Shown here: in pieces, positions 5,816 through 62,334 of the stretch
Position numbering within the stretch: position 1 is the first letter of the stretch
Layout: each line of letters begins with the position of its first letter
Assembly (NCBI RefSeq): GCF_003570905.1
Contig: NZ_QXJM01000039.1
Location: 372,001 to 436,000, forward strand
DNA from: Cohnella faecalis
GTDB lineage: Bacteria; Bacillota; Bacilli; Paenibacillales; Paenibacillaceae
Direction: 5' to 3'
DNA: 64,000 nucleotides
The notes under the pieces: model-generated
Told to the model about the DNA's origin: nothing
Databases searched by the model: none
Seen by the model: only the letters and a program-made list of their open reading frames with translations
Position numbers and translations under genes: made by a program

Positions 5816-6510
5816 CTAGAGGTTATCCGTACTAAGAACATAGCTCCGAATCCGAGTTTTACAGAGACTAGCGGAGAGAACGTGTCCTTCCCTAAGAAGC
5901 TTTTTGAGATGTACCGCGATTGTTTTCCGGTGCCAGTGGAGTCCTCTGGCGATTTGGATCGGCGTAAGGGGCCCTTTGTTCGTTCTCATATAAGCGACGA
6001 TGGCCCGGTCGATGGGATCCGTCATCGTAGCGGAGTCGATGGAGCCATCCCCCACTTCCCGATAGCTTGCTGAAGCAACTGTTGGCAGAGCCGGGGATGT
6101 CTCTGGATGTGATCCAAGGAAAAACGAAGAATCCTCCAATCGTCAAGAACCAGATGGTCATGACGGATTAGGTTGTCGTTATATTTCCATCGATCGATAT
6201 CTCGTTTGTGGGTGCCGTAGGGATCGATTTCGATACAAATGTGCAGCCCCCCGAGCAAGAGTGCAAAGTCTAGATAGCGGTACCCGTCTTTGAAATCTCT
6301 TACTTCATACTCGGGATGCAGATTATCAAATTGGCCAAAGGCGGGCCACCATATTCGAGCTAGAAACTGCAACTCGGCATAATTTCCACCTTTTGGAAGT
6401 GATAGCCTCCTTCGTCGTTCCCCTCTGGCCGATTTGCGCTGCTTCTCCATCCAATTCGTATGGGCAGTCTCGAATTGGGGATCCAGATTCTCCTCCACAG
6501 AACGTCTCAT
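5816..6510 (-). CDS. Vsr/DUF559-like nuclease-fold protein with C-terminal winged helix, frameshifted as given
   Basis: Two minus-strand frames join into one 231-residue protein if one G is added to the run at 6049-6053 (C5 on the plus strand). The N-terminal part reads like a PD-(D/E)XK nuclease of the Vsr/DUF559 group: a conserved Glu (YAELQFLARIWWP), then YLDFALL, then CIEIDPYG, and a terminal GWRILRFS-like strand (DDWRILRFSLD). The C-terminal part, about 70 residues, resembles a winged helix (PLTPIQIARGLHWHRKTIAV). I know of similar Paenibacillaceae proteins but no proven function. The gene points towards the repeat array and ends 13 bases from it. The start at 6510 lacks a well-spaced ribosome site, so the N-terminus is uncertain. 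Confidence 0.7.
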
Positions 6511-6708
6511 CCTCTCGGAAAATAAAATAGCCGCTCATCCGGAACGAAAGTTCCGAACGAACGGCGTATGCTTTACGACCGACCGCAGTATGCGTAGTAA
6601 CGAGACAAGCTTACATGACTTTTCGCCGATTGGCAAGTCTATCGAACGGGTTCTAGCACGAGCTGAAAACGCATAGTTTGAAAGAAGTCCAAGCTATGAG
6701 GGGGTACC

Positions 6709-7959
6709 ATGATACGAAGCTGGAAAATAGAATGGGCTGCGTTCGCCGGAGGGACGCTCGCAGCCGGTATATTGTGGTTATTCGTTCATGCACCGGGATT
6801 TGAGGGGCAGTTATCGACGACAATAGGGAACGAGAGTCCGAAGAGCGAAGCTCAATCGCAAGTCCAATCGCAAGCTCAATCGCAAGTCCAATCGCAAGCC
6901 AAGAGGCTGTCGGACGGGCCCGCGAGCGAGAGATTACAGGGAGGATCTCCTTCATCGGAAAATCCGGACCCCGGAAAGTCCGATTCCGTATCCGGTTCCT
7001 TGCCCGTGACCCAAGGCCTTTCGCCTTTGACCCAAGGCCTTACGCCCTTGGAACCCAATTCCCGCTACCCCGAACCGTTCGTGAGAGTTTACTTGTCGGA
7101 AAGCAAAACCGTAGAGACGGTCAGCCTGGAAACTTACGTACGCGGAGTGGTGGCGGCCGAGATGCCGCTTGATTTCGAGCCGGCGGCGCTGGAAGCGCAG
7201 GCGCTTGCCGCTCGCACTTATATCCTCCGGCGTCTGATGAACGATGATCGCACAGGCATGCCGGTACAGAACGCCGACGTCACAGACACGCAGACGCACC
7301 AGGCATACCGGTCGATTAGTCGGATGAGCAAGCTGCTCGTTCAAGATCGGGAGGGCTGGATGAAAGCCGACCAAGCGTGCCGAAATACGCGAGGCCTCAT
7401 CATCGCCTACGAGGGACAGCCGATCGATGCGCTCTATTTTTCCACGAGCAACGGCTACACGGAAAATTCGGAGGATGTGTTCCCGTTCAAGCTTCCTTAT
7501 TTGCGATCGGTAGAAAGTCCGTGGGATAAAGAGGGGGCGCCTCGTTCGAAGGAAACGGTAGAGATGCCGCTCAAGAGGTTTTACGAATTGCTTGGAGCGA
7601 AGTCGGCGCAGGCCATGGGACCGATAGTTGCGGGTGCGGGGGGAGGCAAGCTGCCTATTCGAGTGACCGAACGGTCGGAAGGACAACGAGTAAAAATGTT
7701 GGCTGTCGGTACGCTCAAGCTGCCGGGAACCGAAGTCCGCAGCATGCTCGGCTTGCGGTCCTCATCGTTCGAATGGGTAATCAAGGGCTCCAAAATCTTC
7801 ATTACCACATACGGAAGCGGGCATGGCGTCGGTATGAGCCAGTGGGGAGCGGAGGGGATGGCGAAGGCAGGGAGTACGTCGCGCGAAATCGTGGAACACT
7901 ACTATCCGGGAGTAAACCTGATGGAAGTATCGAAGCTTCCGAATGGCAGCACGCTATAA
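6709..7959 (+). CDS. spoIID: Stage II sporulation protein D, peptidoglycan lytic transglycosylase
   Basis: SpoIID cuts septal glycan strands during engulfment of the forespore, together with SpoIIM and SpoIIP, from the mother-cell membrane. This 416-residue protein starts at ATG behind GAGGGGG. It has an N-terminal membrane anchor (residues 11-27), then a Gln/Ser-rich linker made of a short repeated QSQ unit, then the SpoIID/LytB domain. The catalytic Glu is Glu151 (RGVVAAEMP); CRNTRGLI and the late GSGHGVGMSQWGAEGMA block are also present. It is longer than the B. subtilis protein because of the linker. Its position before spoIIQ is conserved. Confidence 0.95.
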   Translation: MIRSWKIEWAAFAGGTLAAGILWLFVHAPGFEGQLSTTIGNESPKSEAQSQVQSQAQSQVQSQAKRLSDGPASERLQGGSPSSENPDPGKSDSVSGSLPVTQGLSPLTQGLTPLEPNSRYPEPFVRVYLSESKTVETVSLETYVRGVVAAEMPLDFEPAALEAQALAARTYILRRLMNDDRTGMPVQNADVTDTQTHQAYRSISRMSKLLVQDREGWMKADQACRNTRGLIIAYEGQPIDALYFSTSNGYTENSEDVFPFKLPYLRSVESPWDKEGAPRSKETVEMPLKRFYELLGAKSAQAMGPIVAGAGGGKLPIRVTERSEGQRVKMLAVGTLKLPGTEVRSMLGLRSSSFEWVIKGSKIFITTYGSGHGVGMSQWGAEGMAKAGSTSREIVEHYYPGVNLMEVSKLPNGSTL

Positions 7960-7985
7960 AAATGGTAATCTTCTAATCCGGACAG

Positions 7986-8014
7986 GTATAAAACCCCATC
8001 ACCTGGTAACAATG
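7986..8014 (+). promoter_or_regulatory. Candidate sigma-F promoter for spoIIQ
   Basis: GTATA at 7986-7990, then 14 bases, then GGTAACAATG at 8005-8014 fits the forespore sigma-F pattern (GYATA and GGNNANANTN). It lies 20 bases before the spoIIQ start. spoIIQ is a known sigma-F gene in B. subtilis. Confidence 0.55.
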
Positions 8015-8034
8015 GCTTACTGAGGTGATAAAAA

Positions 8035-16631: not shown

Positions 16632-16738
16632 CGAGGCATGCTAGTCCTAAGGGCCAGCCTCATCAATCCGTCGAACCGGCATCTTATATCGCATCGTACA
16701 GAACAGATTATTTTATTTACACGGTAGGAGTGACGGCT

Positions 16739-18846
16739 GTGCCTCAGTGGCTGAACGTATGGAATCGCAGGTTGTCCATTGGTTATGGTGGATCGTGCTC
16801 GTCGGCGTCGTCGCCGCATTGCCGGTCATGTACGCGAGAGCGCAGACGGAATCGTCGGCGAATAAGGTGGCCGTCGTTGTCGATTACCGGGATTTGCTCC
16901 AGGTTTCTTCTACGAAGGGGGAACCCGAGGCATTTCTGGACGAGCAGCTTGCCAAGCTGAAAGAGGCCGGCGTCAACGGCATGGCGGTGTTCGAAAGCAC
17001 GCTTCAAGAGCTAAGCTGGGCGGGCGAGGTAGAAGTATACACCGCGACAGAGGCGGCGCTGCTTGAAGGAAAGACGGCGGCAGATGCCGGAAATAACCGC
17101 ACCTATGTCATGTTTACGAAGCCGGGAGATGCCGATACAATCCGATCGATGATCGACTGGGCATTCAAAAAGCACGGGTTCGACGTAGCGGATTGGAGCT
17201 ACGAGGGCCAAAAAGGCGTGTCTATCGACATGGGCATCGACGATGCGATGATCCGTCCGATGCAGCCCAACCCGTTGGAAATGGACCGTTTGCACGCAGC
17301 TGGCTACCAGTTGTATCCGCGCTTGTCCGATCGCTTTTCTCCTTACGATCGGGATGAGATGAAACGATGGATAGAATCGTTCGAAAAATACGGCGTAACC
17401 CGCGTACTGTTCGACGGCGAAGGAGTGCCGGGCTTCAGCGAGCCCGCTAAAAATAAAGCGATAGAGAATCTTGCCGATTTGCTTAAAGAGCACGGCATGG
17501 GCATTGGCGCTTTCGAAAATATGAAAGCTCCGACCAAAGGTCTCTCGTCCTTAGCCAAAGACCTCGATTATAATGTCGTCAGAGCGCACAGCTTATCCGA
17601 TGGAGAGCTCGCGAAGCTTACGGTCGAGCAGCTTCAGGATCGGTTGTTCTTGGCGGTGAAGGATCGCGACATCAGGCTCATTTATTTACACACGCTCGCT
17701 CTCAGGGATTCCGTCAAAGGCAAGATGACCAATCCGTTGGAGATGATTGTCGATACCCTCATGGGTGCCGAGAAGTCGGACGATACGGACGATACGATCG
17801 ATACGTCGACCGTCTCTGAAGGAACGGTGGAAGCGACCGCTTTGGAACGCGAGGTTGGATTCATCGAGAAAATGTCGGACTTCGGCTTCGAGCTTGGCGT
17901 TCCTCAAGCGTTCGATGTACACCATGCTCCGGCAGAGAAGGCGCTTCGAGGGCTGGCGATGGCCGGAGCGATTGCGCTGGTTGCTTTGATGCTGGGCTTG
18001 TTCGCACCGGCATTATTGCTTCCGGTTACCGTCATCGGATACATAGGAGCTGCCGGCTTGTATGTGCTCGCTCCGACTTTGATGGTGCAGATGTTGGCGC
18101 TGTTCGCCGCCATTGCCGCTCCTACGGTAGCCGTCGTGCTCCTCGTTCGAAAAATCCGGGAGCGGCGAGACGCCGAGTTGTCCAATGGACGCAAGCTGGG
18201 AGCAGCGTTGCTGCTGTTCGTCAAGACCTCGGTGCTGTCGATTGCGGCCGTTCCGCTCGTAGTGGCGATGCTGAACCATATTACGTACAGTCTGGTGCTC
18301 CAGCAGTTCAGGGGCGTCAGTCTTCTGCACCTTGCTCCTATCGCATTGGTAGCGATCTATGTGTTTTTGTACGGTTCGGGCGATACGGTCATCGGCAACG
18401 CTCGACGCATCCTTATGATGCCGGTTACGTTTTTCTGGGTCGTTCTGATCGGCGTAGGCGCTGCAGCCGGCATGTACTATCTCACCCGCACCGGCAATGC
18501 CGGGCAAGTATCGGGTCTGGAGCTGGCTTTCCGCTCATTCCTGGAGAACACGTTCGGAGTAAGGCCGCGCACCAAAGAATTTTTGATAGGCCATCCCCTT
18601 ATGCTGGCTGGAATCTTCATCGCTCTCCGTTACCGTTGGGCTATGATTCTGCTGGCGATGGCTACGATCGCGCAGCTCTCCATGGTGGATACGTTCGCGC
18701 ACATTCATACGCCTCTGGCGATGTCGATCATTCGCGTCCTGCTAGGTCTGGGTATGGGGATCGTAATCGGCCTGATTGCCGTTGGCGTATGGAGGATCAT
18801 CGAGAAGACTTGGGGAAGAGTCGAGAAGTACGCTCTGGATAAGTAG
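16739..18846 (+). CDS. DUF5693 family multi-pass membrane protein, frameshifted near its start as given
   Basis: The main frame (from GTG 16747) codes a membrane protein with an N-terminal anchor, an exterior domain of about 350 residues (VVDYRDLLQVS to the VGFIEKMSDFGFELG segment) and eight or more hydrophobic helices from about 17930 on. No ribosome site serves GTG 16747. GTG 16739 has TAGGAG 8 bases before it but is in another frame, reading PQWLNVWNRR. Adding one G at 16770-16771 joins them into one 702-residue protein. The family has no proven function; it sits directly before csaB, and I infer a role in secondary wall polymer assembly or export. Confidence 0.75.
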
Positions 18847-29562: not shown

Positions 29563-29577
29563 TACTGAAGCGAAAGA

Positions 29578-31831: not shown

Positions 31832-31841
31832 CTAGAAAAGG

Positions 31842-35150: not shown

Positions 35151-38100
35151 ATGAAGAGGAAGTTCATTAGCGTACTACTGGTATTGGTCATGCTCGTAAG
35201 CGGAGCGAGCGGCGTTTTGGCTGCAGATCTCGAAAGCGGTATGCCGCCCGCTGCGGTACCCAAAAACAACTATGAGCCTTCTCCAAATACGAAGTTCAAG
35301 ATGGGAAAGCTGTCGGAGCCGTTGAAGGATCAGGCATCGATTATATCGTTTGCTCTTTCCCAATCCAAATCGAACGCACTGAAAGGCATAAAGCCAGCGT
35401 ATTCGTTCAAGATCGAAAAATCGAAATACGACGAAGCCGGCCGACAACATGTTGTGCTGCAACAAACTCAGAACGGGGTTCCGATTTACGGCCATTATTA
35501 CCAAGTTAGTCTTGACGGCAATCAACAGGTCTATGCAGTGCAGGACAAGTCGGAATTGGATCTGAGCGCGGTTCAGACGACAAAGCCGAGCATTACCGGG
35601 GAGCAAGCGACAAACCGGTTGAAGTCCGCTTTGGAGGCGTTCTACGGACAACCTGTCGAGCTGGAGTCGGATTATAAGCTCTTCAAATATCCGAAGCCGA
35701 CCGCAGAGTTGCTTATCTATCCTTACGAAGGTAAAACGTATTTGGCGTATGAAGTACAAATGAGCTTTTTGAAGCCCGCTCATGGCAACTGGATCGGCTA
35801 TGTAGATGCCACAACGGGCGAAGTAATCGAAAAATATAATAAAATACAAAACGCTACGGCTGCGTCGGGAACAGGCTACGGTTATAACGGAGCTGCCAAG
35901 ACTATTAATATTACGAGAGACGAAGGGTACTATTTTTTATTCGACCAATCTCACTCGGGAGCGATTGTTTCTTCTAGTTATAATTATGATGTCGATGATG
36001 AAGGCTACATATATGCTTCGTGGAGCAGGAGTAGCACATTCAAGGATTCCGGTTCGCTTCGCAGATATCGCGATGTCGTCGACGCCCATTATAATGCGGA
36101 TATCGTCTACGATTATTACTTGAATACCTTTGGAAGAAACAGCGTGGACGGCAATGGAGCCCGCATATTGTCCATCGCTAATCTTCCGGATGAGGACGGA
36201 TATCCGCTAGATAACGCAGCTTGGGACGATTCGCTGAATGCTATGTTTTATGGCGACGGATCGGGAGTCCGCAACGGAGGAATGAACTGTACGGCTTGCT
36301 CGTTAGACATTGTCGCTCACGAAATTACTCATGGCGTTACCTCCCACACGGCAGACTTGGAATATCGCTATCAGTCCGGTGCGCTTAATGAGTCGATATC
36401 CGATATTATGGCTTCGGTGATCGATTCGGCGGATTGGACGATCGGAGAAGATACAGGCATGATCGGGCGGAGCATGCAAAATCCAAATCTCTACGATCAG
36501 CCAAAAACGATGAGCGAATATGAATATTTGACGATCGATCAAGATAATGGCGGAGTTCACGTGAACAGCGGAATTCCGAATTATGCGGCCTACTTGATGG
36601 CAACCAAGATCAATTCGTTGGGGCTGAACGGAAAAACGATATTGGGCAAGCTGACTTACAACGCGCTTTCCTATCATTTGACGGCAACTTCCGACTTTGT
36701 AGATGCCAAGAACAGCTATTTGCTGGCGGCAGGGGAAATTTCCAGCTTAACGGAGCAACAGCGAAAAGCGGTTCGGTTGAAAATCATCGATGCATGGGGA
36801 GAAGTAGGGATTCCTACGGTTGTCGCCGACTTTTCCGTTACGGGGCACACCCCGGCCTCGGTTACATTCTCTTGGACGGCGGGAAGCGGAGCTTCCAACG
36901 TTATTATTCAACAGTCCGCGGATAATGGAGCGAACTGGACGACGGCATCGACGGGAGTCATTTCGACTTCGGCAGCGACTGCCACGGCAAGCAACCTTCT
37001 CCCCGCGACGAATTATCTATTCCGGCTGGTCATTAACGGCGGCAATAGCGCGGGCACGTCGAACTTGGCGGCGTGGACGACCGAGGCGAGGACGATTTCC
37101 GATTTTGCCATTAAGGAAAAAGGCAGCCGATTTGCGCTCTTTACTTGGAGCAAAGCGATCGGGGCCACTAAAGTAAAAATTCATAAATCTGAGAATGAAG
37201 GACAGACATGGGAATTTGTAGAATTGCCGGTAGAGTCCACTCAAGTGATGGATGCGGGACTCATTCCTAACAAAAATTATCGATTTTATTTATCTGTGAC
37301 AGGCGGGGGTTACCAAGGGAAGTCCAATGAAGTGCGATTCACTACCAATGCGGAGCCTCTCGTCCTGAATCTGGTAGAGGCTGTTGCCGGATCTGCCAAG
37401 TTCCAGTGGGAGGCTCCGAAGGGCGCGACTGGGATTGTCCTGCAGCAAACGACGAACGGAACAACATGGACAACTGCCAATACCGGCGCATTGGGGCTGA
37501 GTGCCGCGGGAGCGACGGTAACGGGCTTGCAAGCGGCAACTTCCTACAAGTTCCGATTGTCGGTATCGGGCGGGCAGAACAACGGGTTTTCCAACGAGAA
37601 GTCGATAACGACGGCTTCATTCCCGATTGAAACGCTGGCCGTAAGCGGCAAAACAACGAGCACAGCATCATTGGCTTGGCCGGCTTTATTAAAGCCAACC
37701 AGCCTGATTGTCCAGCAGAAGACGGAAGGAACGGGGTGGACGATCGCGAAAACGGGCACGTTGTCGACTTCGTCGAAGAGCGCAACGGTAAGCGGACTGG
37801 CTGCGAATACAGCTTATCAGTTCCGCCTTGTTGTGACAGGCGGAGGCAATGCGGGAGAATCGAATATCGTTGATGCAAAAACAGACGCGGTCAAAATTAC
37901 GAGCTTTGCGAAAAACGGAAACGCTACGGTGTCCGCCGTGCCATTCAAATGGACGGCTGCGTTAGGCGCGACGAGCGTTGCGATCGAGCAATCGACGGAT
38001 GGAGCGACGTGGACGTTGTCGGCAACGGGATCGCTGGCCGCGAATGCCTCTGCAGCAACCGTGAGCGGACTTCGGCCTAACAAGACGTATCAATTCCGCT

Positions 38101-40627
38101 TGAAGGTAACGGGCGGGCAAAACGAGGGTTCGTCGAACAGCGTGAGTGCGACGACGGTGGCGGCTCCTCTGACGGACTTGGCGTCCGGAGAAATAACGGG
38201 CAGTACGGCGGAGCTGAATTGGACGGCTGCAGTCGGAGCTTCGAGCGTGAAGGCGGAGTTGTCGTCGAACGGCGGCAGCTCGTGGACGGCCGCAATGGTT
38301 GAGACGGCGGTGGGCGCGAATGCAAGTACCGCCAAGGTAACGGGTTTGTTAGCGGGTACGGATTACAAGCTGCGCCTCAACGTAACGAGCGGCGAGAACA
38401 ACGGGCTGTCCAATGTGATTTCGATAAAAACGGCTATTGTGCCGGTTAGTACACTAACGTCAAGCGGGAAAACGACGAGCTCCATAACGCTGTCTTGGCC
38501 GGCACTGGTGAAACCGACCAGCCTGATCGTCCAGCAGAAGACGGAAGGAACGGGATGGACGACGGCGAAAACGGGTACGCTGTCGACTTCGGCGAAGGGC
38601 GCGACGGTGAGCGGATTGACTGCGAACACGGCTTACCAGTTCCGACTTGTCGTGACGGGCGGAGGCAATGCGGGAGAATCGAACATCGTTGACGCAAAGA
38701 CGGATGCAATTAAGATTACAAGCTTCGCAAAAAACGGGAACGCTACGGTATCATCAGCATCGTTCAAGTGGACGGCAGCGATAGGCGCGACAGGCATTGC
38801 AATCGAGCAATCGACGGATGGCGCGACGTGGACGTTGTCGGATACGGGATCGTTGGCGGCGAATACCTCAGCGGCCACAGTGAACGGGCTTAGACCTAAC
38901 AAGACGTATCAATTCCGTTTGAAAGTAACGGGCGGTCAGAACGAGGGCTCGTCAAACAGCGTGAGCGCGACGACGGTAGCGGCTCCGCTGACGAGCTTAG
39001 TGTCCGGAGAAGTAACGGGAAGTACGGTGGAGTTGGTCTGGACGGCTGCTGTTGGAGCTTCGAGCGTGAAGGCGGAGTTGTCGTCGAACGGCGGCAGCTC
39101 GTGGGCGGCCGCGACGGTAGAAACGGCAGTAAGCGCTAATGGAACTACCGCCAAGGTGACAGGTTTGCTGGCGGGTACGGATTACAAGCTGCGCCTCAAC
39201 GTAACGAGCGGCGAGAACAACGGGCTGTCCAATGTGATTTCGATAAAAACGGTTATTGTGCCGGTTAGTACACTAACGTCAAGCGGGAAAACGACGAGCT
39301 CCATAACGCTGTCTTGGCCGGCACTGGTGAAACCGACCAGCCTGATCGTCCAGCAGAAGACGGAAGGAACGGGATGGACGACGGCGAAAACGGGTACGCT
39401 GTCGACGACTTCGGCAAAGGTCGCGACGGTGAGTGGATTGACTGCGAACACGGCTTACCAGTTCCGACTTGTCGTGACGGGCGGAGGCAATGCAGGAGAA
39501 TCGAACATCGTTGACGCAAAGACGGATGCAATTAAGATTACAAGCTTCGCAAAAAACGGGAACGCTACGGTATCAACAGCATCGTTCAAGTGGACGGCAG
39601 CGATAGGCGCGACAGGCATTGCAATCGAGCAATCGACGGATGGCGCGACGTGGACGTTGTCGGATACGGGATCGTTGGCGGCGAATGGCTCTGCTGCAAC
39701 CGTGACGGGGCTTCGACCTAACAAAATGTATCAATTCCGTTTGAAAGTAACGGGCGGTCAGAATGAGGGCCCTCGAACGGCGTGAGCGCGACGACGGTGG
39801 CGGCTCCGCTGACGGATCTAGCGTCTGGAGCTATAACGGGCAGTACGGTGGAACTGAGTTGGACAGCTGCCGTCGGCGCTTCGAGCGTGACGGTAGAGGT
39901 TTCGACGAACGGCGGCAGCTCGTGGAAGCCTGCGACAGTTGAAACGGCAATAAGCGCAAATGCAAGCACCGCTAAGGTAACAGGGTTGCTGGCGGGCACC
40001 GATTACAAGCTCCGTCTGAACGTTACGGGCGGAGAGAACAATGGTTTGTCCAATGTACTTGCAATCAAGACTGCCAACGAAGTGGTTACTTCCTTGGCAG
40101 TAACCGGCAAGAGTGCGAACACGGTTGCATTATCCTGGTCCTCGCTTATTAGAGCTTCATCGGTTTCCGTCGAATTCCGTACAACAGGCGGCGAATGGCA
40201 GCCGGCCAGCGCCGGCGCGTTGTCATCGTCTTCCAAGACCGCGACGGTGAGAGGGCTGCAGGCCAATACGGAGTATGAAATTCGCCTGAAGGTAGTCGGA
40301 GGGGCTAACGAAGGAGCTTCTTATCCGGTAAGCGTAAAGACCGACGCATTGAAGCTAACGTCGCTGTCGAACACCGGAAAAACGTCCTCAAGCGTGACTC
40401 TTAAATGGACAGTGCCTGCCCGAGCCGCTTCCTTCGGCATTCTGATTTCAACGAATGGCGGGGTGTCTTGGGGTGTCGTCGAATACCCGGAATTGGGATT
40501 GGATTCCACTAGCGCCACAATTACGGGATTGAGCGCCTATACAAGCTATAAATTCAAGCTAGCCATCTCAGGCGGGGATTATGAAGGAGAGTCCAACGAA
40601 ATCACCGTTAGGACAACGCGGGCGTAG
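35151..40627 (+). CDS. Exported M4 (thermolysin-like) metalloprotease with 14 FN3-like domains, frameshifted as given
   Basis: ATG 35151 follows CGGAGGAGA, and a signal peptide (RKFISVLLVLVMLVSGASG) leads the protein. An FTP/PepSY propeptide covers about residues 40-230. The M4 catalytic domain carries His390-Glu391-x-x-His394 (VAHEITHGV) and the third zinc ligand Glu414 (ALNESISDI), the exact 20-residue gap of thermolysin. Fourteen repeats of about 90 residues, each ending in a TYQFRLKVTGG-like strand, make up the rest and look like fibronectin type III. The frame breaks at 39770-39772; adding one C there gives a 1825-residue protein, matching the sister repeats. There is no SLH domain, so the protein is secreted or held by its repeats. 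Confidence 0.9.
37614..40072 (+). repeat. Three-fold 819-bp repeat of an FN3 triplet
   Basis: Units run 37614-38432, 38433-39251 and 39252-40072. Each codes three different FN3-like domains in the same order. Units 2 and 3 are almost identical over long stretches, and unit 1 is more diverged. Unit 3 has a 3-base insertion (an extra Thr codon near 39407) and a 1-base deletion at 39770-39772, which together account for its length of 821. Confidence 0.92.
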
Positions 40628-42420: not shown

Positions 42421-42519
42421 GTGTCCGGGATGCGAAATAAGTCGTTTGTCCCTAAAATTCTCCATACTCGCAGCCGAAATATAAGGTACAAGACTGTTCA
42501 TTTTCAGGAGGACTTCTTC

Positions 42520-45500
42520 ATGACCCGTTTTCGCGCAATATCCTTGTTCCTAATTGTCGCCATATTGCTTCAGATGGGCGCCGTGACGGTTAGTCCTAAG
42601 AGCGCTGCCGCCGCAAGCGCAGGGCCCATCCTCAAGAGCCAGTCGCCGGCTAACGGTTCCTTCATTACGCCGGACCGCGGAATTCGAATTACTTTTGACG
42701 AGAACGTGCGAAAGGGATCGGGCAACATCATATTCGGGTCGGAAGTGTACCCGGTCGCGACAGATGACGTTCACATTCAATGGGAAACGACAAAAACCAT
42801 TCTTATCAAACCGACGGACTTGGCGGTCGGCCAGGATTATTCGGTTATCCTCGAAGCGGGAGCTTTCATCGGGGTAACTTCGGGGCTGCCTTCGGCCGAG
42901 TACGATCTGGGAACCTTTTCAGTTCGGTCTTTGGGAGTATTGGACGTTTTCGACGAGACGGTTGCTTCTCCCTACTACCCTGAGAATGGCGCCGTAGACA
43001 TCGATGCGGACAAGTCGGTAGCTCTCAAGCTGTATTTCAATCAGAGCGGGATGAAAATCGGCACGGGCAACGTCTACATCAAAAAATATACCGACAACAC
43101 TATCGCTCAAACGATCAAAACGAGCACGACGGCTACTAAAATATCAAACGCAACGGTTGGAGAAGTACCCGTCTCTTTCACCTCCATTCCGATGTCCAAG
43201 CTGGCTAACAGTACCAAGTACTACGTTATGATCGATCCCGGAGCTTTCGTCGACGAGTACGGCAATCCTTTTCCGGGAATTACGAACAAGGAAGAATGGA
43301 CGTTCACGACGGAGGAATTGTTCGATACGGTAGCTCCTACCGCAAGCAATTTCGTGTTTATTTCCTCGGGAGCGTCGATTCCGCGGGCGGATTGAACGGC
43401 GTTCTGTCCGTCACCTTCAGCGAAAAAGTGTACACGGGGAGCGGAGCGATCGAGATCCGTAAATCCGATAACACCACGTACTGCTCCATTCCGGTTGGAG
43501 CCGGCGCAGTTACTTTGGACAGTGCGGGCAAGGTCGTGACGATCTCGCCAAGCGTGTATGCTTGCCCGAAGTTCGTTAACGGCAGCACCTATAAGCTCGT
43601 TATCGGCAATCAAGCTTTTCGCGACGGCAACGGGAACTATTACGCAGGGCAAAGCGGCTGGTCGTTCAAAGCTTCGGTCGACAACACGCTTCCTTCCGTG
43701 TCGATCTACTCGCCTGCCGTATCCGCCAAGGCCGTATCCGTCAACACTACAACTTTGACGTTGACTTTCAACAAGGCGGTCAAGCAAGTCGGAGAGGATG
43801 TCGTCACGGCTGTCGCATTTCCCCAAAGCAAGCCTAGTACGGCAAGCGAGCGGATCAATTGGACGGTTTCATTCGATTCGACGGATAACAAGAAGATTAT
43901 TCTGACCAAAGACGACGGGGAAAAGGACTTCAACCCCAACACCAAGTATGTCGTCAATATTCCGGCCGGGGTCATTTCCGATTTGGCCGGCAATCTATAT
44001 CCCGGCATGTTGAATCTTTATCAGTGGACGTTCGATACGGGAGCTGCCGGGGAGTTCCAACTTTGCAAAAAGCGGAAATGGACGGAGCCTCTATCGTCCT
44101 GACCTACAATGAGACGCTTAACCCCGACACGGTTCCCTATGCCGATAATTACTATGCTACGGTTAGCGGCTCGTTCCGCCAGGTGACGGGGGTGTCGGTC
44201 AGCGGCACTCAGGTGAGGCTGGCGTTGCAGCAAGGCGTTGTCGTTGGGCAGAGCGTGAAATTATCGTATACGCCGCAATTGAACGATGCGTCCAGACACA
44301 TTCAAACTTTGCTGGGCAAGGAAGCGGCAGCCTTCACGAACCGCGACGTGACGAACACGACGAGCACGACGCTGCCGCGTCCGGTCAGCGGATCGCTATC
44401 GGGGCGCTCGTTACATTGAATTTCAATAGAGAGCTCGCGGCGCTGCCTTCCAATGCGAACAGCCTCTTCTATGTAACGGCGGGGAGCAGCCGGATAAGCG
44501 TCAGCTCGGCTACGCTAAGCGGATCGATGCTATTGCTGCTTCTTCCTAGCCAGCCAAGCGTCTCGGGAGCTATTACCGTTTCTTATACGCCGGGTTCGAT
44601 TCCGATCCGCGATTTGGCGGGGAACACGTTGGCGGCCTTCGCCGGTTTTGCCCTAACCAATCCGAACGATACGACAGCGCCTGTCTTCCTAACAGGTGTC
44701 GCGAACGGCAAGAAGATCGTGCTGAATTACGACGAAGCGTTGAGGACAAGTCCCGTTCCTGCGATTTCGAGCTACTCGATTCTCTCGGGCGGCAAAGTCG
44801 TATCGATAAGCTCTGTAGCCATTAATGGAAATTCAGTCGAATTGACGCTATCCCAAAGCTTGGCGGATGGCGCCGGCGTTACCTTGACTTATTATCCCGG
44901 CAATTCATACGTCGCGGATATTGCCGGCAATCCGGCCCCTTTCATTAGCGGCTATTCGATGACTGCGTCTGGAGGGAGTACGGCTCGTCTCGCTTCTGCC
45001 GTCATTAACGGGAATGTGCTGTCGCTGACGTACTCGACACCGCTGAATACGTTAAGCTCCAGCATACCTAATGTGAGCCAATATACGGTTAAAGCAAACG
45101 GTGTAACAATCGCGGTCCGAAGCGTGTATATTTCTGGACAGCAGGTTACTCTCAGCCTGATGAGCGACGTTCAATCCGGGCAGCAGGTGCTCATAAGCTA
45201 CACGAATACCGGAAATCCGTTGAAGGATACGTTGGGCCAAACGGTCGAGACGTTCTCGAACTATTCGGTTACGAATCAGACGACCGGCACCGGAGTCGTT
45301 CTGCCGGAATTTCTGGAGCCAGACGGCAACGGCGGGATCAGGCTTGTGAATTCGAAGGCTGTCGTCACTTCTTCCGGCGTGACGTTGTCCGGGAAAATCG
45401 CAAACAAATATTCGATCGACGGCGACAAGCTCTATAACGGCTTCAATACGATCAAGCAAGGGAATGCCACGCAGCCGGTTCTCGTGGCGCAAATTCCCGA

Positions 45501-46580
45501 GACGGAAGCGGGCGCGATCGTAAGCGTAAACGTTCGAAGCTTGATTAACGCGGCGGCTCTCGTCTCGAACGGAATTCTTAAAGTGAACTACGGGATACTT
45601 CCTTCTCCTTGCCGCTTAAGGCCGTTAATTATACCGAGCAGCTGCAGGGCTCCGGTTACGATACGAACTCCGTCCAATTGGTAGTGCGAATCGAGAAGTC
45701 ATCTACGACGAGCCTGGCAACTGCATTAACCAAGAAAGGCGGAACGTTGGTCGGGAATGCCTATGATTTTTCCGTGTCTTTGCTTTTGGGCAATGTAGAG
45801 CGTACTGTCAGTGAATTCGATTCTTACGTCGAACGCTCCATATCTGTCAATTCGTCGGGATTGACCGCCAGCGAGTTGACCGTGGTCAGACTCGATGCGG
45901 AGTCGGGCGATGCGACGTACGTCCCGACGTCTACGGAAACGGCAAGCGGGAAAATCAAAGTCAAGTTTTCCAGAAAAGGGAACAGCGTGTATGCGGTCAT
46001 GCGCAAAGCTCCGCTGGTTTACTCGGATATGACCAAGCATTGGGCGAAAGCCGATGTTTCCAAGCTCGCCGCCAAATTTATCGTTAGCGGCATTAACTCC
46101 ACTCAGTACAAGCCGGAACAGGCGATTACGCGCGCGGAATTCGCCGAATATATTGCAAGAGGTCTTGGATTGACGGGAGACAAGAGCGTCGTGACTTCCA
46201 AGTACAAGGACGTTCCGGCAACAGGCGCAAGCGCCGCCTTTATCGGAGCGGCAAGCAAAGCGGGTATCGTGTCGGGAGGCACGGACGGGAAATTCCGGCC
46301 GAACGCTTCCATTACTCGGGAAGAGATGGCGTCAATGCTCGTGCGTGCGATGAAATATGCGGGTGTATCGACGACCGCTTCTTCCACGGCTTTGAATAAA
46401 TTTACGGACAGGGCTAAGGTCGGAAGCTGGGCGAAGGACGGCGTTGCGGCCTGCGTACAAGCGGGAATTATTAGCGGCGTTACGCCAACGACGATCAAGC
46501 CGCAAAATAACGCGAAAAGGTCGGAGGCGGCCTCGATGATTACGCGGTTCCTGAAATACGTGGACTTGTTGGAAGCATGA
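42520..46580 (+). CDS. SLH surface protein with Big_5 and SWM-like repeats, four frameshifts as given
   Basis: ATG 42520 follows CAGGAGGA, with signal peptide RAISLFLIVAILLQMGAVTV. Five overlapping frames (to 43395, 44102, 44419, 45684 and 46580) join into one 1354-residue protein if a G is added at 43368-43370, 44049-44052 and 44401-44404, and a C at 45609-45610. The N-terminal 500 residues look like Big_5 Ig-like domains (TPDRGIRITFDENV, TKYYVMIDPGAFVDEYGNP). Then come at least four SwmB-type repeats (AVINGNVLSLTYSTPLNTL, VTLTYYPGNSYVADIAGN), and three SLH domains end it (YSDMTKHWAKADVSKLAAK, ITRAEFAEYIARGLGL, ITREEMASMLVRAM). It is a wall-bound, probably adhesive or structural protein. The YjbR gene overlaps its stop. 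Confidence 0.85.
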
Positions 46581-47215: not shown

Positions 47216-50028
47216 ATGCGCAATTATTCGTCTCACCCGCTGCGTTATTCGTATCAAGACGCGGCGGAGTTCGTCGCAACGTCATCCGGCGCCGGGCAGG
47301 CCGGCAAGTCGCCTCATCTCCCTTATTCCCGTAATTATGCCCATACTCGCACTCGTATTTCGAAAATCGTCATCCCCTTCATGCTGGCGGAATACTCGCA
47401 ACATCCGTTCCGCTGAACGCAGGCTGGCTCGCCGTGCCTGTCGCCCATGCGGCCGACGCCAAAGCGGCAACGGTAACCTACAAGCTGGTCAAGCAATCCG
47501 AAGCAATCGTCACCTCCGGCGTGAAACAAATCAATTACGCATGGACGCCTTCTGTCGCCGCCAAGACGACCGAGATGCTTCACGTGCTTCAGATCGACTT
47601 AACTAACAAGTACGTCAATCTGAACGCAATGGCCGGGAAAGCAGGCAGCGTGACGACGGGGCAGTCCGTTACCGCCATGGCGAAGGAGACGGGCGCCGTC
47701 GCCGGAGTGAACGGAGACGTATTCAATACGGCTACCGAAGGCGCTCCGATGGGGGCGCAGATCGAGTCCGGCAAGCTGGTCGTCAGCACATCCCAACTGA
47801 AAGGGATGTATGCCTTCGCGCTGACGAAGGACAAGAAGCCGGTGATCGATCTGTTCACGTTCCAAGGCACCGTCACTGCTGCGGGCGGAGCGACTTTCGC
47901 ACTCGCGGGCATGAACAAGTCGGCCTACAAGACCGAGCCGGACAAGGCTTACAGTCACGTAGACGCGCTTTACATGTACACGAGCGATTGGACGGCGTCG
48001 GAACGGCCGACCGCCAGCGCGACGAAAGCGACGGAGGCGCTCGTTGTGAACGGCGTCGTCACGGAGGTATCCGCTTCCGGAACGCCGATCGCGACGCCGA
48101 TTCCGGAGAACGGATACATATTGCGCGGACACGGCAAGGCCGCGGCCTTCATTACCGGAAGCCTCAAAGCGGGCGACAAAGTAACTTCGACCTACACCCT
48201 GAAATCGCAGACGACCGGCGAATCCTATAAGGAGTCGGATTTTCAGATGATGGTCGGCGGGCATACGATTCTTCTCGACCAAGGGAAAGCGGCTGCGTTC
48301 TCCCGGGACATTAACGGCGTCAGCGGCTCGGCCGATCGGGCGCGGACGGCCGTCGGCTACTCGAAGGACGGCAAGACCGCATATCTTGTCACGGTCGAGG
48401 AGAATGGAGGCCGCGAAGGAGTGACGCTCAAGGAGCTTCAGCAGATGCTCCTGCAGCTTGGCGTCTGGAAGGCGGTCAATCTCGATGGCGGAGGATCGAC
48501 GACGATGGTAAGCCGTCCTCTAGGAGAGTATACGGCTTCCTTGACTCACCCGACATCGTACGGAACGACGCAGCGGCTCGTTTCGAACGGAATCGGCGTC
48601 TACACGACCGCGCCGAAGGGGACGATCAAAGGGATTACCGCCACCAGCGGCGCTACTACGTTGTTTATCGGACAACAGACCACGTTTCAAGTGAAAGCGT
48701 ACGACAGCTACTATAATCCGGTCGACAAGCTCGGATTTGAGGCGACATGGAAAATAAGCGGCGGAATCGGCACGTTCAAGGATGGCGTACTGACCGCCGC
48801 CAAAGCCGGCAAGGCGACCGTGTCCGTCAAAGCGGGGACCGCCAGCAGCGAAGTCGGCGTCGAAGTCATCGGCGCAAGTCAAATCGAGCGGCTTACCGTC
48901 GACTCCGGTTCGGTCATTCTTCGCCCCGGGGCGGTTATCTCCGTGCCGGTCAAAGCCCGCTTGAAGGACGGCAGGGAAATTTCCGTCCCCGCAAGCTCGT
49001 TGCAATGGGAGTTCAAAGGGTTTGAAGCCAAAGCAAGCGGCGGCAAGCTGACCGTTACGAGCGTAGAGCCGGGCATTACGGCGGGCTACGCTATTGCCCG
49101 GTACGACGGGCTCGGAACGGCAGCCATTCTGGCTCCGGGCTCCGAGAAGGTGTTGGCGGACTTCGAGGATGCCGCTACTCCCGTCAGCTTTAGCGCCTTG
49201 CCTGCGGAGACGACCGGCACAGCTTCTATCATCGGCGGCGTTCCCGGACGCGAGACTTCGAACGTACTCAGCCTCTATTATGACTTTACTTACGGCAAGG
49301 GCAGCCGCTTCGCCTATGCGAACCTGCTCGGCGCGGACGGCAAAGGCATCGCGATCGACGGCAATCCGAGCGCTCTTACTCTCGATGTTCTGGGAGACAG
49401 CAGCTTTAACTGGATTCGCGGGGAATTCGTCGATTCGAAGGGCAAGCAAGTGCTCGTCGACATTGCCCGGACGATCGATTGGTCGGGATGGAAGTCGATC
49501 AAGGTCGATCTTACGAAAGCGAGCTTGACTACTCCGGCACGGCTTACGAAGCTGTACGTCGTTAATTTGGAGCAGGACCAGGACGAGCGGGCCCTCCAAG
49601 GAGAGCTAGCCTTCGACAATGTCGCGATTCAGTACCCTCCCGCCGCATACGTGCCGGTGAAGCCGACCATCGTTCTCGGCGTCGGCAAGAAGCAAGCAAC
49701 TTTGAACGGCAAGACGATTGAGCTGACGACGGCCCCTTTTACAGTCAACGGTGTCAACTACTTGCCGCTTAGATTCGTCGCCGACGCATTGGGTGCCCAA
49801 GTGTTCTGGGACAATGCGGCCAGAAGGGTGACCGTGCTTCGCGAGGACTCGATCATCGAGCTGTGGGTCGGCAATTCGGAGATAACGGCGAACGGGGTCC
49901 GCAAGAAAGTAATCGCCGCTCCTATCAACAAGAACGGCAGCGTTTATGTGCCGGTTCGCGTCATTTCCGAGCAGCTCGGCCAAACCGTCGGGTGGGAGCC
50001 GAAGACCAAAACGATAACAATTCGTTAA
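47216..50028 (+). CDS. Phosphodiester glycosidase (NAGPA-like) with copper-amine-oxidase N-terminal-like domain, frameshifted as given
   Basis: ATG 47216 has ATAGGAGA before it. The first frame stops at 47416; the main frame takes over if one G is added at 47389-47390. This restores a signal peptide ending AVPVAHA-ADAK and a 937-residue protein. The NAGPA/DUF2233 domain has VAGVNGDVFNTATEGAPMG and the hallmark KAVNLDGGGSTTMVSRPLG. A Big2-like domain and a carbohydrate-binding-like region (VLADFEDAATPVSF) follow. Two C-terminal stalk units (NGVNYLPLRFVADALGAQVF, GSVYVPVRVISEQLGQTVG) are of the kind that often attach Paenibacillus proteins to the wall. The enzyme probably removes sugar phosphodiesters from wall polymers; the substrate is unknown. 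Confidence 0.85.
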
Positions 50029-54541: not shown

Positions 54542-55322
54542 TGAAGCAAAATGCCGAAGGAGGTACGTTGGCGACGGCGGGAGGAAGCTTGTCCGGCGCG
54601 GCTAACGGGGCGGAGCGCCAATGGCGGGTGGGAACCTGGTCGATGGGAATCGCGCTGCTGGCCGCTGGGTGCTCGTTGTTGGCGCAGTCGCTGGGGGCGG
54701 ACAAGGACGCCTGGCTTTCATTGTCGCTTTGGTGGCCGGTGCTTTTCATCGTCTTGGGTGGTGAAATATTGGTGTTCCTGGCTTTGCAAAAGCAGCAAGC
54801 CCCTTGTTGAAGTTCGACGGACTGAGCATTCTGCTGATCGGACTGATTGGGACGGTCGGCCTCGGATTGGCTGCATTCGAGCAGAGCGGGGCGCTGGATG
54901 AATTTCGGCATTTTTTGCGGTCGGAGGAACGGCTGCTTGAGGCGCCGGCGCTGCAGCGGGAAGTCGGGCCCGACGTACAGCGGATCGTGATTCGGACTGA
55001 CGGGGGCGGATATTGGCCTATATACGCCGATGCGGTGGACGCTCGCGAGTTGAGCGTGTCGGCTTTCGTCAGAGCATCGTTCTTGCCGGGGGAACGGGAT
55101 CCGTCGTGGCTTGCCTCGCTTTTGTCGGAGGAGCGGGTCGGGGATACGCTGTACGTAACGGTGAGACGGCCGCCCGCTTCGAACGGGCTGGACGAGGCGC
55201 CTTCCCGGTTCGACGTGAGAGTCGTTGCGCCAAAGGACGTTAAAGTCGAATTTCATACATTGGCGCATGAGCTGGAGCTGCGGAATAAGCCTGAAAAATG
55301 GGAGGTTCCTACGGAACGGTAG
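54541..55322 (+). CDS. Membrane protein of the ECF operon, frameshifted as given
   Basis: ATG 54541 overlaps the preceding stop (TGATG). The first frame ends at 54810 and the second runs 54804-55322. Adding one C to the run at 54800-54803 joins them into a 260-residue protein. Three hydrophobic helices come first (WSMGIALLAAGCSLLA, LWWPVLFIVLGGEILVFLAL, DGLSILLIGLIGTVGLGLAA), with an outer or DUF4097-like beta domain behind (VQRIVIRTDGGGYWPIYADA). This layout, helices then beta domain, recalls LiaI/LiaF-like or adhesin-like envelope proteins. I cannot name the function. Confidence 0.72.
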
Positions 55323-56230: not shown

Positions 56231-58503
56231 ATGAGGGCGGTGTTATATGCGGTGCTCACGGAAGAGGGGTGGGTTCCCGGATGGTCGGTTGCATGGGAGG
56301 TGGATTTGGGGTATTGGCTGGAGGAGGAGTTTCGGGCCGGAGTCCGTTCGGAGGGGACGGGGTTCGCTGGCGCGGGAATAAAGGGGAGGGCGATGGCGAG
56401 GCTTAAGGAGCCGATACCGCTAGGGCTTGCGGAAGCGGCCTCCGATTGGCTGGCAGAACGATTTGAGGTTCATGGAAGGAAGCGGGACAAGAGCCAAAAA
56501 GGTATTCGAGATGGATCGCTAGAGGGATTAAGGAAAGAAGAGAGGCGCAGCTTGGAGGAAAACGGCGATCGGGCATATTCGGAGAATGTGGAGGAATTGC
56601 TGCAAGAGGCTCTTCGCGCGGCTTATTTCGCGGAATCCGGGGGAAGTGCCGGGCTGACGACCGAGCGGAGCAGCAGCAAAGCGGACGTATTCGGGAACTT
56701 GTCGATGGCGATGGAAACAATGCTTTGCTCAGCCGGAGGTAATGGAAGCCGCGAGGGGATGTTCGAGGAGGGGCGAACGCTTGCGAAGTTCGCCCGCATG
56801 GCCTCGGAGCGCTTGCAGGGCCGCTCGCTCCTGCAGGAAGAAGCGGCCCCGCTGCTGGCGCAGGCGTTGCCCGCGGGCGGCGGCTTCGCCGCGGCGAAGC
56901 GCGCGCTGCAGCTCGCCGCGCTTCTAGGCGCCGTGCGGCTGACAGCCGCCGTGGCGCCGCAGCCCTTGCAGGCCCCCGGCCGGGGCCGCTGCGACGCGCC
57001 TTCGGCGCGTTTTTCGCCTGCGCGGCTGGCGGCCGCGGGGCCGTGTCTTTGCGCTGCCGCCGTTGCGGCGGCGGCTCAGCGCAGCTGCGGCGCACATGGT
57101 GCGCCGCTTGCGGGCGGCGATGCGCTTACTGCGAAGCGTGCCTTACGATGGGGAGGAGCCGCGAATGCGGGCTGCTCGTAATAGGCACGCTTGAACGGGA
57201 GCGCAGCGTCTCCCGCCCTGCTGCCGCGAATGCGGGCGAGCTCGCCGCGCGTTGGGGGCTTAGCCCGGCACAGGCGGAGGCCGCCGCCGCGGCTCTCAAC
57301 TTCCTCGCCAGTCCCGGCCGCTGGCTTCCGCCTTTCAGCCCTGACGCGAGCGTACTTTCCTCCCTCGCTGGTCCCGGCTACAGCCAGCTTCGGCCTTCCA
57401 GCTTTACGCTGCAATCGCTAGTTGCGAAGCGGCTTGCCAATCTTCTTTCGTCGACATTCGGTCGTCGGAATGAACGATCCCGACTCTCCGGCCGGACTTT
57501 TCTCCTCTGGGCGGTAACGGGCGCGGGCAAGACAGAGATGATTTTTCCGCTCATCGATTCCGTTCTGGCCTCGGGAGGCCGAGTGTTAATCGCCACACCC
57601 CGGCGCGATGTCGTGCTTGAACTCGCTCCCCGATTAAGCAAAGCCTTTCCAGACGCAAAAAGAGCCGTTCTGTACGGAGGGAGCGCCGATAAATTCGCAA
57701 ATGCCGAATTGACCTTGGCGACGACGCATCAATTGCTCCGGTTTCAAGGCGCGTTTGATCTTGTGTTGATCGACGAATTGGACGCGTATCCCTATCATAA
57801 CAATCCTATGCTGCACTATGCGGCGGCCAAGGCAGGCAAGAAGGCCGGAGCGACTGTGCTGCTTAGCGCCACTCCGCCGGCTGAATTGAAGCGGCAAGCC
57901 GTTCGCGGGAAGCTCCCTCATGCGAGAGTACCTGTCAGGCATCACGGCTTCCCTTTGCCGGTACCGAGGCGCTTGCCCGTTCCGGGCGCAGCCCGATGGC
58001 TGCAGGCTGCCAAGCCTCCGCACAGGCTGTTGAAGGCGCTTGCCCAATCTTTGGATCGAGGCGCCCAGGTTTTTCTGTTTGTGCCGGTTATTCGATTCGT
58101 GGAGCCGCTCGTCGAATTGCTTCGTCTTCATCTGAGAATTCGTCCCGACTCCATCCAGGGAACGTCCTCCGAAGATGAAGCCAGAACGGATAAAGTAGAT
58201 TTATTTCGGGAGAAGAGAATACGCCTTCTCGTGACGACCACGATTTTGGAGCGGGGAGTGACGATTCCGAAAAGCGACGTATTCGTATTGGATGCGGATA
58301 AGCCGTTGTTCGACGCGGCTGCGCTTGAGCAGATGGCGGGACGCGCCGGAAGATCCCGCGACGATCCGGCAGGCCGGGTTTATTTTGCCGCTTCTTCCTG
58401 GACAAGCGCCCAACGCAAAGCTTGCCGCGAAATTCGGGGGATGAATCGGGAGGCGGTACGCAAAGGGTATCTTTCTGCAAATGGGAGGAGAGGCGAATGC
58501 TAG
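56231..58503 (+). CDS. comFA: Late competence helicase ComFA with long N-terminal extension, frameshifted as given
   Basis: ComFA is the ATPase that helps pull transforming DNA through the membrane. ATG 56231 is behind AAGGAGGAGG. The first frame stops at 57181; adding one G at 57037-57040 joins it to the main frame, giving 757 residues. The join lies just before the zinc finger (CRRCGGG, CAACG, CAYCEAC). Helicase motifs follow: Walker A (GAGKTE), LIDELDAYP, LLSATPP, TTTILERGVTIPKSDVFVLD and MAGRAGRS. B. subtilis ComFA is about 460 residues; the extra N-terminal 270 are low-complexity and alanine-rich. comFC overlaps by 7 bases. Confidence 0.9.
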
Positions 58504-59376: not shown

Positions 59377-59442
59377 CTTCTACATCTAGTACAATTATCA
59401 TAACGAAGCTCGAACAATGTCAGAGATAGGAGGGAATTCGTT

Positions 59443-59864
59443 ATGGATTTGGCTAACTGCCCCGCTGCGGCAAGCTGTTTGCCCGCCATTTTCGCGATGT
59501 TTGTCCCGACTGCTTGAAAAGGCTGGAGAAGGAATACGAGGCCTGCGTAGACTACTTGCGAGATCACAAGGGCGCAACTATAAACGAACTGTCGGAAGAA
59601 ACGGAAGTTACCATCAAGCAAATTACCCGTTTCATTCGGGAAGGACGCATTTCTTTGGTCGGGGCGCCGAATTTGTCCTACCCTTGCGAAGTGTGCGGAA
59701 TCCTTATTCGAGACGGCACTATGTGCGATTCCTGTCGCGGGCGATTGAATCGCGATGTCAAGAATGCGACCTCCAACGATAATCCGAAGGCTTCTTCGGC
59801 GGCCCAAGATTACCGTTCCGGCGGCGCGTACCGGATTGGCGATAGGCTCCGAGACAGAGATTAA
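59443..59864 (+). CDS. yvyF: Flagellar-operon protein YvyF (TIGR03826 family), frameshifted as given
   Basis: ATG 59443 has ATAGGAGG before it. Adding one C to the run at 59460-59463 gives a 140-residue protein beginning MDLANCPRCGKLFARHF. It has N-terminal CPRCG and CPDC pairs, a central helix-turn-helix-like part (TINELSEETEVTIKQITRFI) and C-terminal CEVCG and CDSC. Two zinc ribbons around a DNA-binding segment suggest a regulator. B. subtilis yvyF also sits between comFC and flgM. Confidence 0.87.
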
Positions 59865-60214: not shown

Positions 60215-60238
60215 AGAGCGGACGGATGTGACTGCATA

Positions 60239-60733
60239 ATGATTCGAGAATTGATCGACATCCTAGATACGTTGCAGTTGCAGCACGAGCAGCTTATCGA
60301 TCTGGCCGAAGCGAAGAAGGAAGCGGTCATGGGCAATCAGCTGGATAAGCTGACCGAAGTGACGTCGAGAGAATCCCGGCTAGTGAAGCAGATCGGGGAG
60401 ACCGAGCAGCGCAGAGTACTGGCGACGGCCTCGATTTTGCGCAAGATGGGGCTTAAGGCTACCGCTCGGACGACTTTGTCGGATCTGATCGTGTACGTAA
60501 CGACCGCTTCCGACAAAGAGAAGCTGACGGAGGCTGCTCGGAAGCTGTCCGCCCGGGTTCAAACTCTTAAGCGGCTCAACGATCAAAACATGGCGCTTAT
60601 CCAGCAAGCGAAGGATTTCAATGATTTTTCGCTGGATTTGCTGACGGGCGGCAACGAGCCGGATTACATCTACGCCAAACCGTCCGTTCCGGGCAACAGG
60701 CCGAAGCCCAATTTGTTCGATTCAAGAGCGTGA
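60239..60733 (+). CDS. flgN: Flagellar chaperone FlgN
   Basis: FlgN binds the hook-filament junction proteins FlgK and FlgL before export. The 164-residue, almost wholly helical protein (IDILDTLQLQHEQLIDLAEA, then KKEAVMGNQLDKLTEVTSRE) fits the family and lies between flgM and flgK, as yvyG does in B. subtilis. It follows flgM by 24 bases. Confidence 0.9.
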   Translation: MIRELIDILDTLQLQHEQLIDLAEAKKEAVMGNQLDKLTEVTSRESRLVKQIGETEQRRVLATASILRKMGLKATARTTLSDLIVYVTTASDKEKLTEAARKLSARVQTLKRLNDQNMALIQQAKDFNDFSLDLLTGGNEPDYIYAKPSVPGNRPKPNLFDSRA

Positions 60734-60775
60734 TTGCCAATATGATCTATTAAGGATAGAAACGGGGAATCGCAG

Positions 60776-62334
60776 ATGAGATCGACCTTTCACGGGCTGG
60801 AGACGGCCAGGCGCAGTCTGTTCACGCAGCAAGCCGCGCTCCAGACGACAGGACATAACGTTGCCAATGCCAATACGGCGGGTTATTCGCGCCAGACGGT
60901 CAACATGGTGGCCACGAGGCCGATCGAAGCGATCGGATTGACTCACTCAACGATACCGGGGCAGCTCGGCACCGGCGTGGAGTTCAACTCTATTACACGG
61001 ATACGCGAAAGCTTCTTGGATAACCAATTCCGCAACGAGAGCCAGAACAACGGGAACTGGTCCGTTCGGTTAGATACTTTGCAGAAGCTGGAGACGATCG
61101 TGAACGAGCCGTCCGACTCGGGTCTGCGGTCCATTCTGGACAAGTTTTGGAGCTCCTGGCACGATCTCAGCGAAAGTCCGGAAGATTTGACGGCACGGAA
61201 GCTCGTTCGGGAAACGGCCAACGCGTTAACGGACGCATTCAATCAAACCAGCAGGCAGCTGGAGGAATTGCGCGCCGATCTTTCGGAGAATATCGAGGTT
61301 AAGGCGTCGCAAATGAATACGGCCGTTCAGACGATTGCGGAGCTGACGAATCAAATTCGCCGTATTGAAGGTTTCGGGGACAATGCCAATGATCTCCGCG
61401 ATCAACGAGATGTGTTGGTCGACGAGCTGTCGAAGATGGCTAACATAACCGTCCGGGAAACTTCCGACGGCTATCAGGTTTCGTTGGGGTCTCAGGTTCT
61501 CGTCGAGAACGGAGAAGCTAATCCCGTAACGGCGGACGGCTTGACGGGCAGCTTCGGGGCGATCTGACCGGCGGTGAAATCTATGGAATGATCATGTCGC
61601 GGGATCAATACGTGACGGATTATCAGGCTCAGTTGAACACCATGGTGAACGGATTGGTCAACGGCGATATCGAGATTACCATTCCCGCGGGATCTGTGCT
61701 GCCGGAAGGCACCGTGCTGAATGGTATCACCTATAACGGCAATAATCGCACGCTTGCCGCCGATCTTACGGTCACCGTCAAAGGGCTGAATGGGCTGCAC
61801 CAGCTCGGCTATACCGCTCAAGATCCGCTGAAGGCGGGAGGGGCGTTCTTCGTCTCCAAGGACGGCGGACCTTTGACGGCAGGCAATATTCAAATTAGCT
61901 CAGACATCTCGGCCGACGCTTCTAATATCGCCTCTTCTATGCGCACCGTTACGAGCGGCGGGACTGAATCGGTCGTGAAGGGAAACAAAGATTTGGCTAT
62001 GCTTATTTCCCAATTCAACGATACGAAGATCAACTTCGGCACGGTGAACGCAGGCGCTCTTACAGGGAAGGGCACTGTCAACGATTTTTTTCGCTCCATC
62101 GTCGGCCAGCTCGGTATCACGACGCAGGAAGCGCAGCGCCAATCCGACAATTCGAAGATTGTCGTGGACCAGGTCGATTCCCGCCGGCAATCGGTCAGCG
62201 GGGTTTCGCTCGACGAAGAGATGGCGAATATGATCAAGTTCCAGCATGCTTATAACGCTGCTGCGAGATTTATGACGACGATTGACGAGACGTTGGACAA
62301 GATTATTAATAGCATGGGAACGGTAGGCAGGTAA
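60776..62334 (+). CDS. flgK: Hook-filament junction protein FlgK (HAP1), frameshifted as given
   Basis: FlgK caps the hook and joins it to the filament. The N-terminal Flg_bb_rod segment (TTGHNVANANTAGYSRQTV) and the C-terminal helix (GVSLDEEMANMIKFQHAYNA) are both present. The first frame stops at 61567 and the second opens at 61588. Adding one G to the run at 61556-61559 gives a continuous 519-residue protein (GSFGGDLTGGEIYG across the join), the normal family length. Confidence 0.93.

Follow-up and report, generated by a model that had tools for sequence, protein, structure and literature searches.

The window analysed here, a stretch of 64,000 nucleotides from a Cohnella draft genome (positions 372001-436000 of contig C33, 1.81 Mb; the whole genome is 6.43 Mb in 65 contigs), contains nine genes broken by twelve one-base frameshifts, eleven of them confirmed against homologues and one moderately supported. 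These breaks are real features of the deposited sequence, but almost certainly not of the organism. With a probability of roughly 94%, they are G/C runs that collapsed in the consensus of the draft assembly, and the genes are intact in the organism. This reading is preferred because the same kind of break hits rpoB, rpoC, the gene of a QoxB-type quinol oxidase subunit and the 23S ribosomal RNA (rRNA). A base-calling or consensus defect would drop one base, mostly from short G/C runs, and the cause would probably be the under-calling of run length in the reads or in the consensus.

Frameshifts in the window

The translated open frames of relatives were compared with the window by tblastn, and adjacent collinear match pairs that changed frame were recorded as breaks. 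Fifty-nine relatives were searched, 36 of which belong to the same genus as the studied genome; G-numbers denote genomes of relatives, C-numbers contigs of the studied genome and L-numbers loci. With the helicase frame 57043-58503 as query, mainly Cohnella and Paenibacillus loci were matched, and the top eight were all Cohnella.

The original prediction, made from the sequence alone, had described twelve one-base frameshifts in nine genes and had proposed a comparison with the same genes in relatives. Through this comparison the number of nine genes proved correct, and at eleven of the twelve sites the window was found to be one base short (modulo 3) against its homologues, with 2 to 86 supporting loci per site, some genomes entering these counts twice. 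The remaining site, 47389, found moderate support only. The broken genes are listed below with the tblastn break, its supporting loci and its placement by alignment.

5816..6510, minus strand: gene with one break at 6051 (minus strand, 16 loci), placed within 6023-6054, an interval that includes the C5 run 6049-6053
16727..18846, plus strand: DUF5693 protein (PF18949); break at 16770, near the N-terminus (22 loci), placed at about 16775-16779
35088..40627, plus strand: thermolysin-type (M4) peptidase with fibronectin III repeats; break at 39771 (6 loci), placed at about 39765-39772; alignment gain 77 points
42421..46580, plus strand: surface protein with Big_5, SWM and SLH domains; breaks at 43369 (6 loci; 43345-43403), 44050 (14 loci; 44040-44056), 44402 (18 loci; 44399-44415) and 45609 (28 loci; 45592-45602)
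47216..50028, plus strand, start approximate: phosphodiester glycosidase (NAGPA) / Cu amine oxidase N-terminal-domain protein; less certain break in the N-terminal part, 47372-47391
54547..55322, plus strand, start approximate: gene with a break at 54801 (7 loci), placed at 54796-54806 (C4 run); alignment gain 75 points
56231..58503, plus strand: DEAD/Helicase_C protein; break at 57038 (2 loci), within 56966-57048, with the G4 run 57037-57040
59417..59864, plus strand: small gene ahead of the flgK region; break at 59461 (6 loci), near 59460-59463 (C4 run)
60776..62334, plus strand: FlgK, flagellar hook-associated protein (TIGR02492); break at 61557 (86 loci), placed at 61538-61560, with the G4 run 61556-61559; alignment gain 112 points

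The surface protein alone contains four of the twelve sites. Modulo 3, the loss of one base equals the gain of two, and the alignment scores favour a one-base loss over a two-base gain. Most of the predicted positions stood and three were corrected, namely to about 16775-16779, 45592-45602 and 43345-43403. The first of these was chosen by 9/9 aligned references, and the longest G/C run there is 2; the claim that every break lies in or next to a G/C run therefore holds at most sites but not at 16775-16779. In the second interval GGG and CC are present, and not the TT of the predicted position. The break at 43369 can be placed only to 43345-43403 and was a loss for 8/10 references in frameshift-aware alignment, and the placement at 44040-44056 holds for most references. 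The break at 57038 was a loss for 9/10 references, with positions scattered over 56966-57048. For 39771, one frameshift-aware alignment with eight references gained only 0-15 points and the other gained 77; for 54801, one such alignment had two uninformative references and the other gained the 75 points listed. The site 59461 had no references in the frameshift-aware alignment, and its support comes from the six tblastn loci.

No frame-changing match pair was found at 47389 in tblastn of the relatives' frames. In frameshift-aware alignment, a one-base loss within 47372-47391 was preferred by 8/10 references (six by 22-30 points and two by 8), and the other two weakly favoured a gain at another place (by 10 points). 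One genome or more is represented twice among these ten references. The homologues thus give this break moderate support.

Regarding the identity of these genes, relatives of 5816..6510 have open frames mostly of 220-330 amino acids, and a 285-amino-acid relative (L236) has an IclR-type helix-turn-helix match. Relatives of 47216..50028 are open over about 900 amino acids, and one relative of 54547..55322 (L023) has a LiaI-LiaF-like transmembrane region. DEAD/Helicase_C domains were found in 56231..58503; the name ComFA is a label of the original prediction. The same is true of YvyF for 59417..59864, to which no analysis here gave a name.

Losses along the contig and in control genomes

The survey covered 464 kb, made up of the window and a further 400 kb of its contig, and the identical pipeline was applied to stretches of relatives as controls. 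References from G034 and G012 were excluded from the controls, the placement and the loss survey, as these genomes are error-rich and caused false breaks. Sixteen of 48 clusters were removed: twelve with stronger opposite-strand matches, three scoring below 40 and one failing both. The window sites 43357 and 56952 are among them, and the survey of run enrichment thus counts eight window sites.

In the studied genome, 27 one-base losses and 5 apparent gains were found in 266 kb of homology-covered sequence. The controls contained 4 losses and 3 gains in 244 kb (G010), 4 losses and 8 gains in 229 kb (G003), 8 losses and 3 gains in 250 kb (G014), and 0 losses and 2 gains in 54 kb (G036), counts that are probably upper limits as several control events lie apparently at gene junctions. 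At lower locus support, these four controls gave 7, 12, 11 and 2 events with no one-sided trend. Breaks with at least three supporting loci, counted before the strand filter, amounted to 14 losses and 2 gains in the studied genome, and none was present in the examined stretches of the four controls. One-base losses thus dominate across unrelated genes, as expected of homopolymer under-calling.

Collagen-like repeats contain two of the five apparent gains, and a third is at a gene junction. The fourth fits a two-base loss (L132:7746, beside a C6 run, in 3/4 pairs), and the fifth looks true (L132:905). The prediction that bases are always lost and never gained is right for the twelve window sites, but elsewhere on the contig a one-base gain and a two-base loss appear to exist. 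L132:905 and L132:7746 lie in two ABC-transporter-type ATPase genes that resemble each other and are separated by 7 kb on C33.

Breaks in core genes and 23S rRNA

We found rpoB in a single place in the genome, C8:1-1468, in seven pieces, none of which is over the family cut-off. Over these 1.47 kb, comparison with three relatives revealed eight one-base losses and one two-base gain, and no one-base gain. As rpoB sits at the contig end, rpoC (C8:1705-5340) was also examined, and three frame changes were revealed, each one base short modulo 3; nucleotide alignment gave a position for the outer two only. In 40 kb of C8, surveyed with references from G010 and G030, a further plus-strand gene changes frame at about 6600-6609, where it is one base short, and a short additional piece was found for each of two plus-strand genes (7488-7643 and 28098-28139). 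The remaining matching plus-strand G010 frames align in one piece, paralogous matches aside. On C33, the gene of a QoxB-type quinol oxidase subunit I is broken twice (with 970 bits, its relative stays under the 1015.5 set as family cut-off), and such breaks also exist in an IS3-type transposase and a group II intron maturase.

In the seven ordinary copies of the 23S rRNA, a single base is lost five times, in four cases from a C4 run and in the fifth from a G6 run, and no gains were found. The affected runs are present in 6/6 copies of relatives. Column 1234, missing in L316, L320, L324 and L332, was set aside and is variable among relatives too. The eighth copy (L332, C30:87915-90837) was left out of the count for its divergent stretches: its deviations from the majority comprise 27 losses and 20 insertions, and a stretch near the 3' end looks rearranged. 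Many of the losses fall in G runs, but an A run and a single T are also hit once each. It may come from a poorly covered contig or a chimera.

Both rpoB and rpoC are essential, and a living cell could hardly carry damage of such kind in these genes and in the 23S rRNA. The original prediction had argued from flgK as an essential-type gene; flgK is not an essential gene and is weak evidence, and the strong case comes from rpoB and rpoC. Its conclusion that G/C runs were under-called and that the genes are not decaying was upheld, as the signature recurs in a further 400 kb of the contig, in rpoB and rpoC, in the QoxB-type oxidase and in the 23S rRNA, and is absent, at three or more supporting loci, from four relatives.

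Losses at G/C runs and alternative explanations

Of 27 losses, 26 could be placed within 17 bases, and these were compared with random coding intervals of equal size (5000 draws). A G/C run of at least 3 was touched by 20/26 placed losses against 6.3 expected, a number reached in 0/5000 draws, and a run of at least 4 by 8/26 against 1.5 expected (P 0.0002). A/T runs of at least 3 showed no excess (7 observed, 7.0 expected). When ten sites in rpoB and rpoC were added, CCC/GGG was the strongest 3-mer, at 25/36 sites against 7.9 expected.

It might be speculated that a DNA modification in G/C-rich motifs (CGGG/CCCG contexts) distorts the signal of the sequencer and causes a base to be missed, in which case the breaks, or some of them, would mark modified sites. 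CCCG/CGGG is indeed present at 17/36 loss sites against 3.8 expected, and CCGG at 7 against 2.6. However, C before a G run is the commonest context anyway: among CGGG, AGGG and TGGG, the share of CGGG is 65% at the loss sites (17/26 counts) and already reaches 52% in the null draws. CCGG (P 0.013) fails correction for the number of 4-mers, and the leading 3-mer is CCC/GGG. A modification-driven error, though conceivable, is not needed, as the CGGG excess is close to the normal G-run context of the genes, and we consider modification an improbable cause. If it were true, the positions of the errors would roughly chart that modification in this Cohnella.

Slipped-strand phase variation, which would toggle surface and motility genes, is less probable still. 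In its favour, several broken genes encode surface or flagellar proteins, and four breaks fall in a single SLH protein. Repeat tracts of phase variation are usually well over 6 bases and lie in contingency genes, whereas the G/C runs remaining at the 26 placed sites have at most 4 bases and the window sites are all losses. The breaks are also found in rpoB, rpoC, the QoxB-type oxidase, the IS3-type transposase and the group II intron maturase, and even the non-coding 23S rRNA is affected. The original prediction had already regarded phase variation as weak, and the short runs together with the broken housekeeping genes and 23S rRNA agree with that view. Just as slight is the chance of real gene decay or of a mismatch-repair-deficient strain accumulating insertions and deletions, which would suit the many broken genes along the contig, but rpoB and rpoC (the sole copy found, or essential) are repeatedly broken, and a mutator should produce gains as well and should affect A/T runs, which show no excess although at 5 bases or more they are over three times commoner in the window than G/C runs (171 against 50).

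Comparison with known assembly errors

The proposed collapse of G/C runs in the consensus resembles known errors of long-read assembly. For one long-read bacterial assembly, false deletions after runs of 2-8 bases, mostly 4-5, are described as breaking genes (Kastor, PMC12007338). The case described there is alike in that the errors are mostly false deletions that break genes; it differs in that G/C-run errors in that Pseudomonas were about half of the A/T-run errors, whereas only G/C runs are in excess in the studied genome. Residual errors of nanopore consensus sequences are described as mainly frame-shifting homopolymer insertions and deletions, with run lengths tending to be underestimated, and worse at high GC content (Homopolish, PMC8011154; Sequencing DNA with nanopores, PMC8486125). 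The errors of the studied genome look alike and may be of this kind; the length of its contigs, which reaches 1.8 Mb, suggests that long reads were used.

Two of the relatives are probably nanopore-only assemblies reported in PMC10308117: G012 would be that of C. ginsengisoli DSM 18997, and G034 that of C. rhizosphaerae DSM 28161. Like the studied genome, they belong to the same genus, have lowered completeness (94 and 91) and show many one-base breaks in conserved genes. Their profile is the mirror image: gains outnumber losses by 17 to 1 in 59 kb and by 19 to 1 in 48 kb and mostly lie in long homopolymers of any of the four bases, against 27 losses and 5 apparent gains, mostly in G/C runs, in the studied genome. 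Gene breaks occur in them every 2.4-3.3 kb covered, approximately. As these gains were seen, the method is able to detect error-prone assemblies. In the loci L106-L109 of G034 and L114-L117 of G012, the typical error is one extra base, mostly in a long homopolymer.

The completeness of the studied genome is 92.2 and its contamination 6.9; among same-genus relatives, completeness is 99 or 100 in 32/36 and contamination at most 3 in 29/36. We infer that the low completeness is partly due to broken marker genes.

Several observations weigh against collapsed G/C runs as the explanation. The one-base gain at L132:905 seems real, and 6/26 placed losses touch no G/C run of at least 3, including the window site 16775-16779. 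A nucleotide-level census of insertions and deletions was not discriminating, with 28 G/C losses and 20 G/C gains in the studied genome and 11/11, 17/12 and 12/16 in G010, G003 and G014, counts which are too noisy at such divergence; run-length spectra also show no clear shortage of long G/C runs. At the contig end where rpoB lies, depth may be low. The contamination value is high, yet 2/36 same-genus relatives are at 6 or 7. Furthermore, the profile is unlike that of G012 and G034, so it does not match the nanopore-only recipe by which those two were probably assembled.

The finding is almost certainly an assembly artefact and not a biological feature, and it matters mainly as a warning on assembly quality. 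Neither the broken genes of this genome nor those of G012 and G034 should be taken as pseudogenes, phase-variable genes or lost functions. About one loss per 10 kb covered would mean several hundred artificial breaks in 6.43 Mb, a rough estimate that assumes an even spread, and any gene count, completeness score or pseudogene survey using this genome would be distorted by them.

Other features of the window

A 51-bp tandem repeat forms two arrays in the window, at 3397-4103 (13.9 copies) and 5532-5803 (5.4 copies), which flank a Mutator-family transposase gene (4217-5407). Most units contain the inverted repeat GGAAATA/TATTTCC with the arms separated by 16 bases. A pattern search allowing at most 2 mismatches gave 41 copies in the genome, which make up four arrays on C33 and all lie on its forward strand; the same search found no copy in any of the 59 relatives. 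There are hints of more divergent copies on C22, C27 and C44. The repeat was also considered as a broken coding repeat, but stops in all three forward frames indicate that it is apparently non-coding.

A region of low G+C content is located at 26773-31831 (41.5% at 28001-32000) and contains a 929-amino-acid frame with SLH domains and a 702-amino-acid frame. The former is overlapped by a long antisense frame at 26917-29391.

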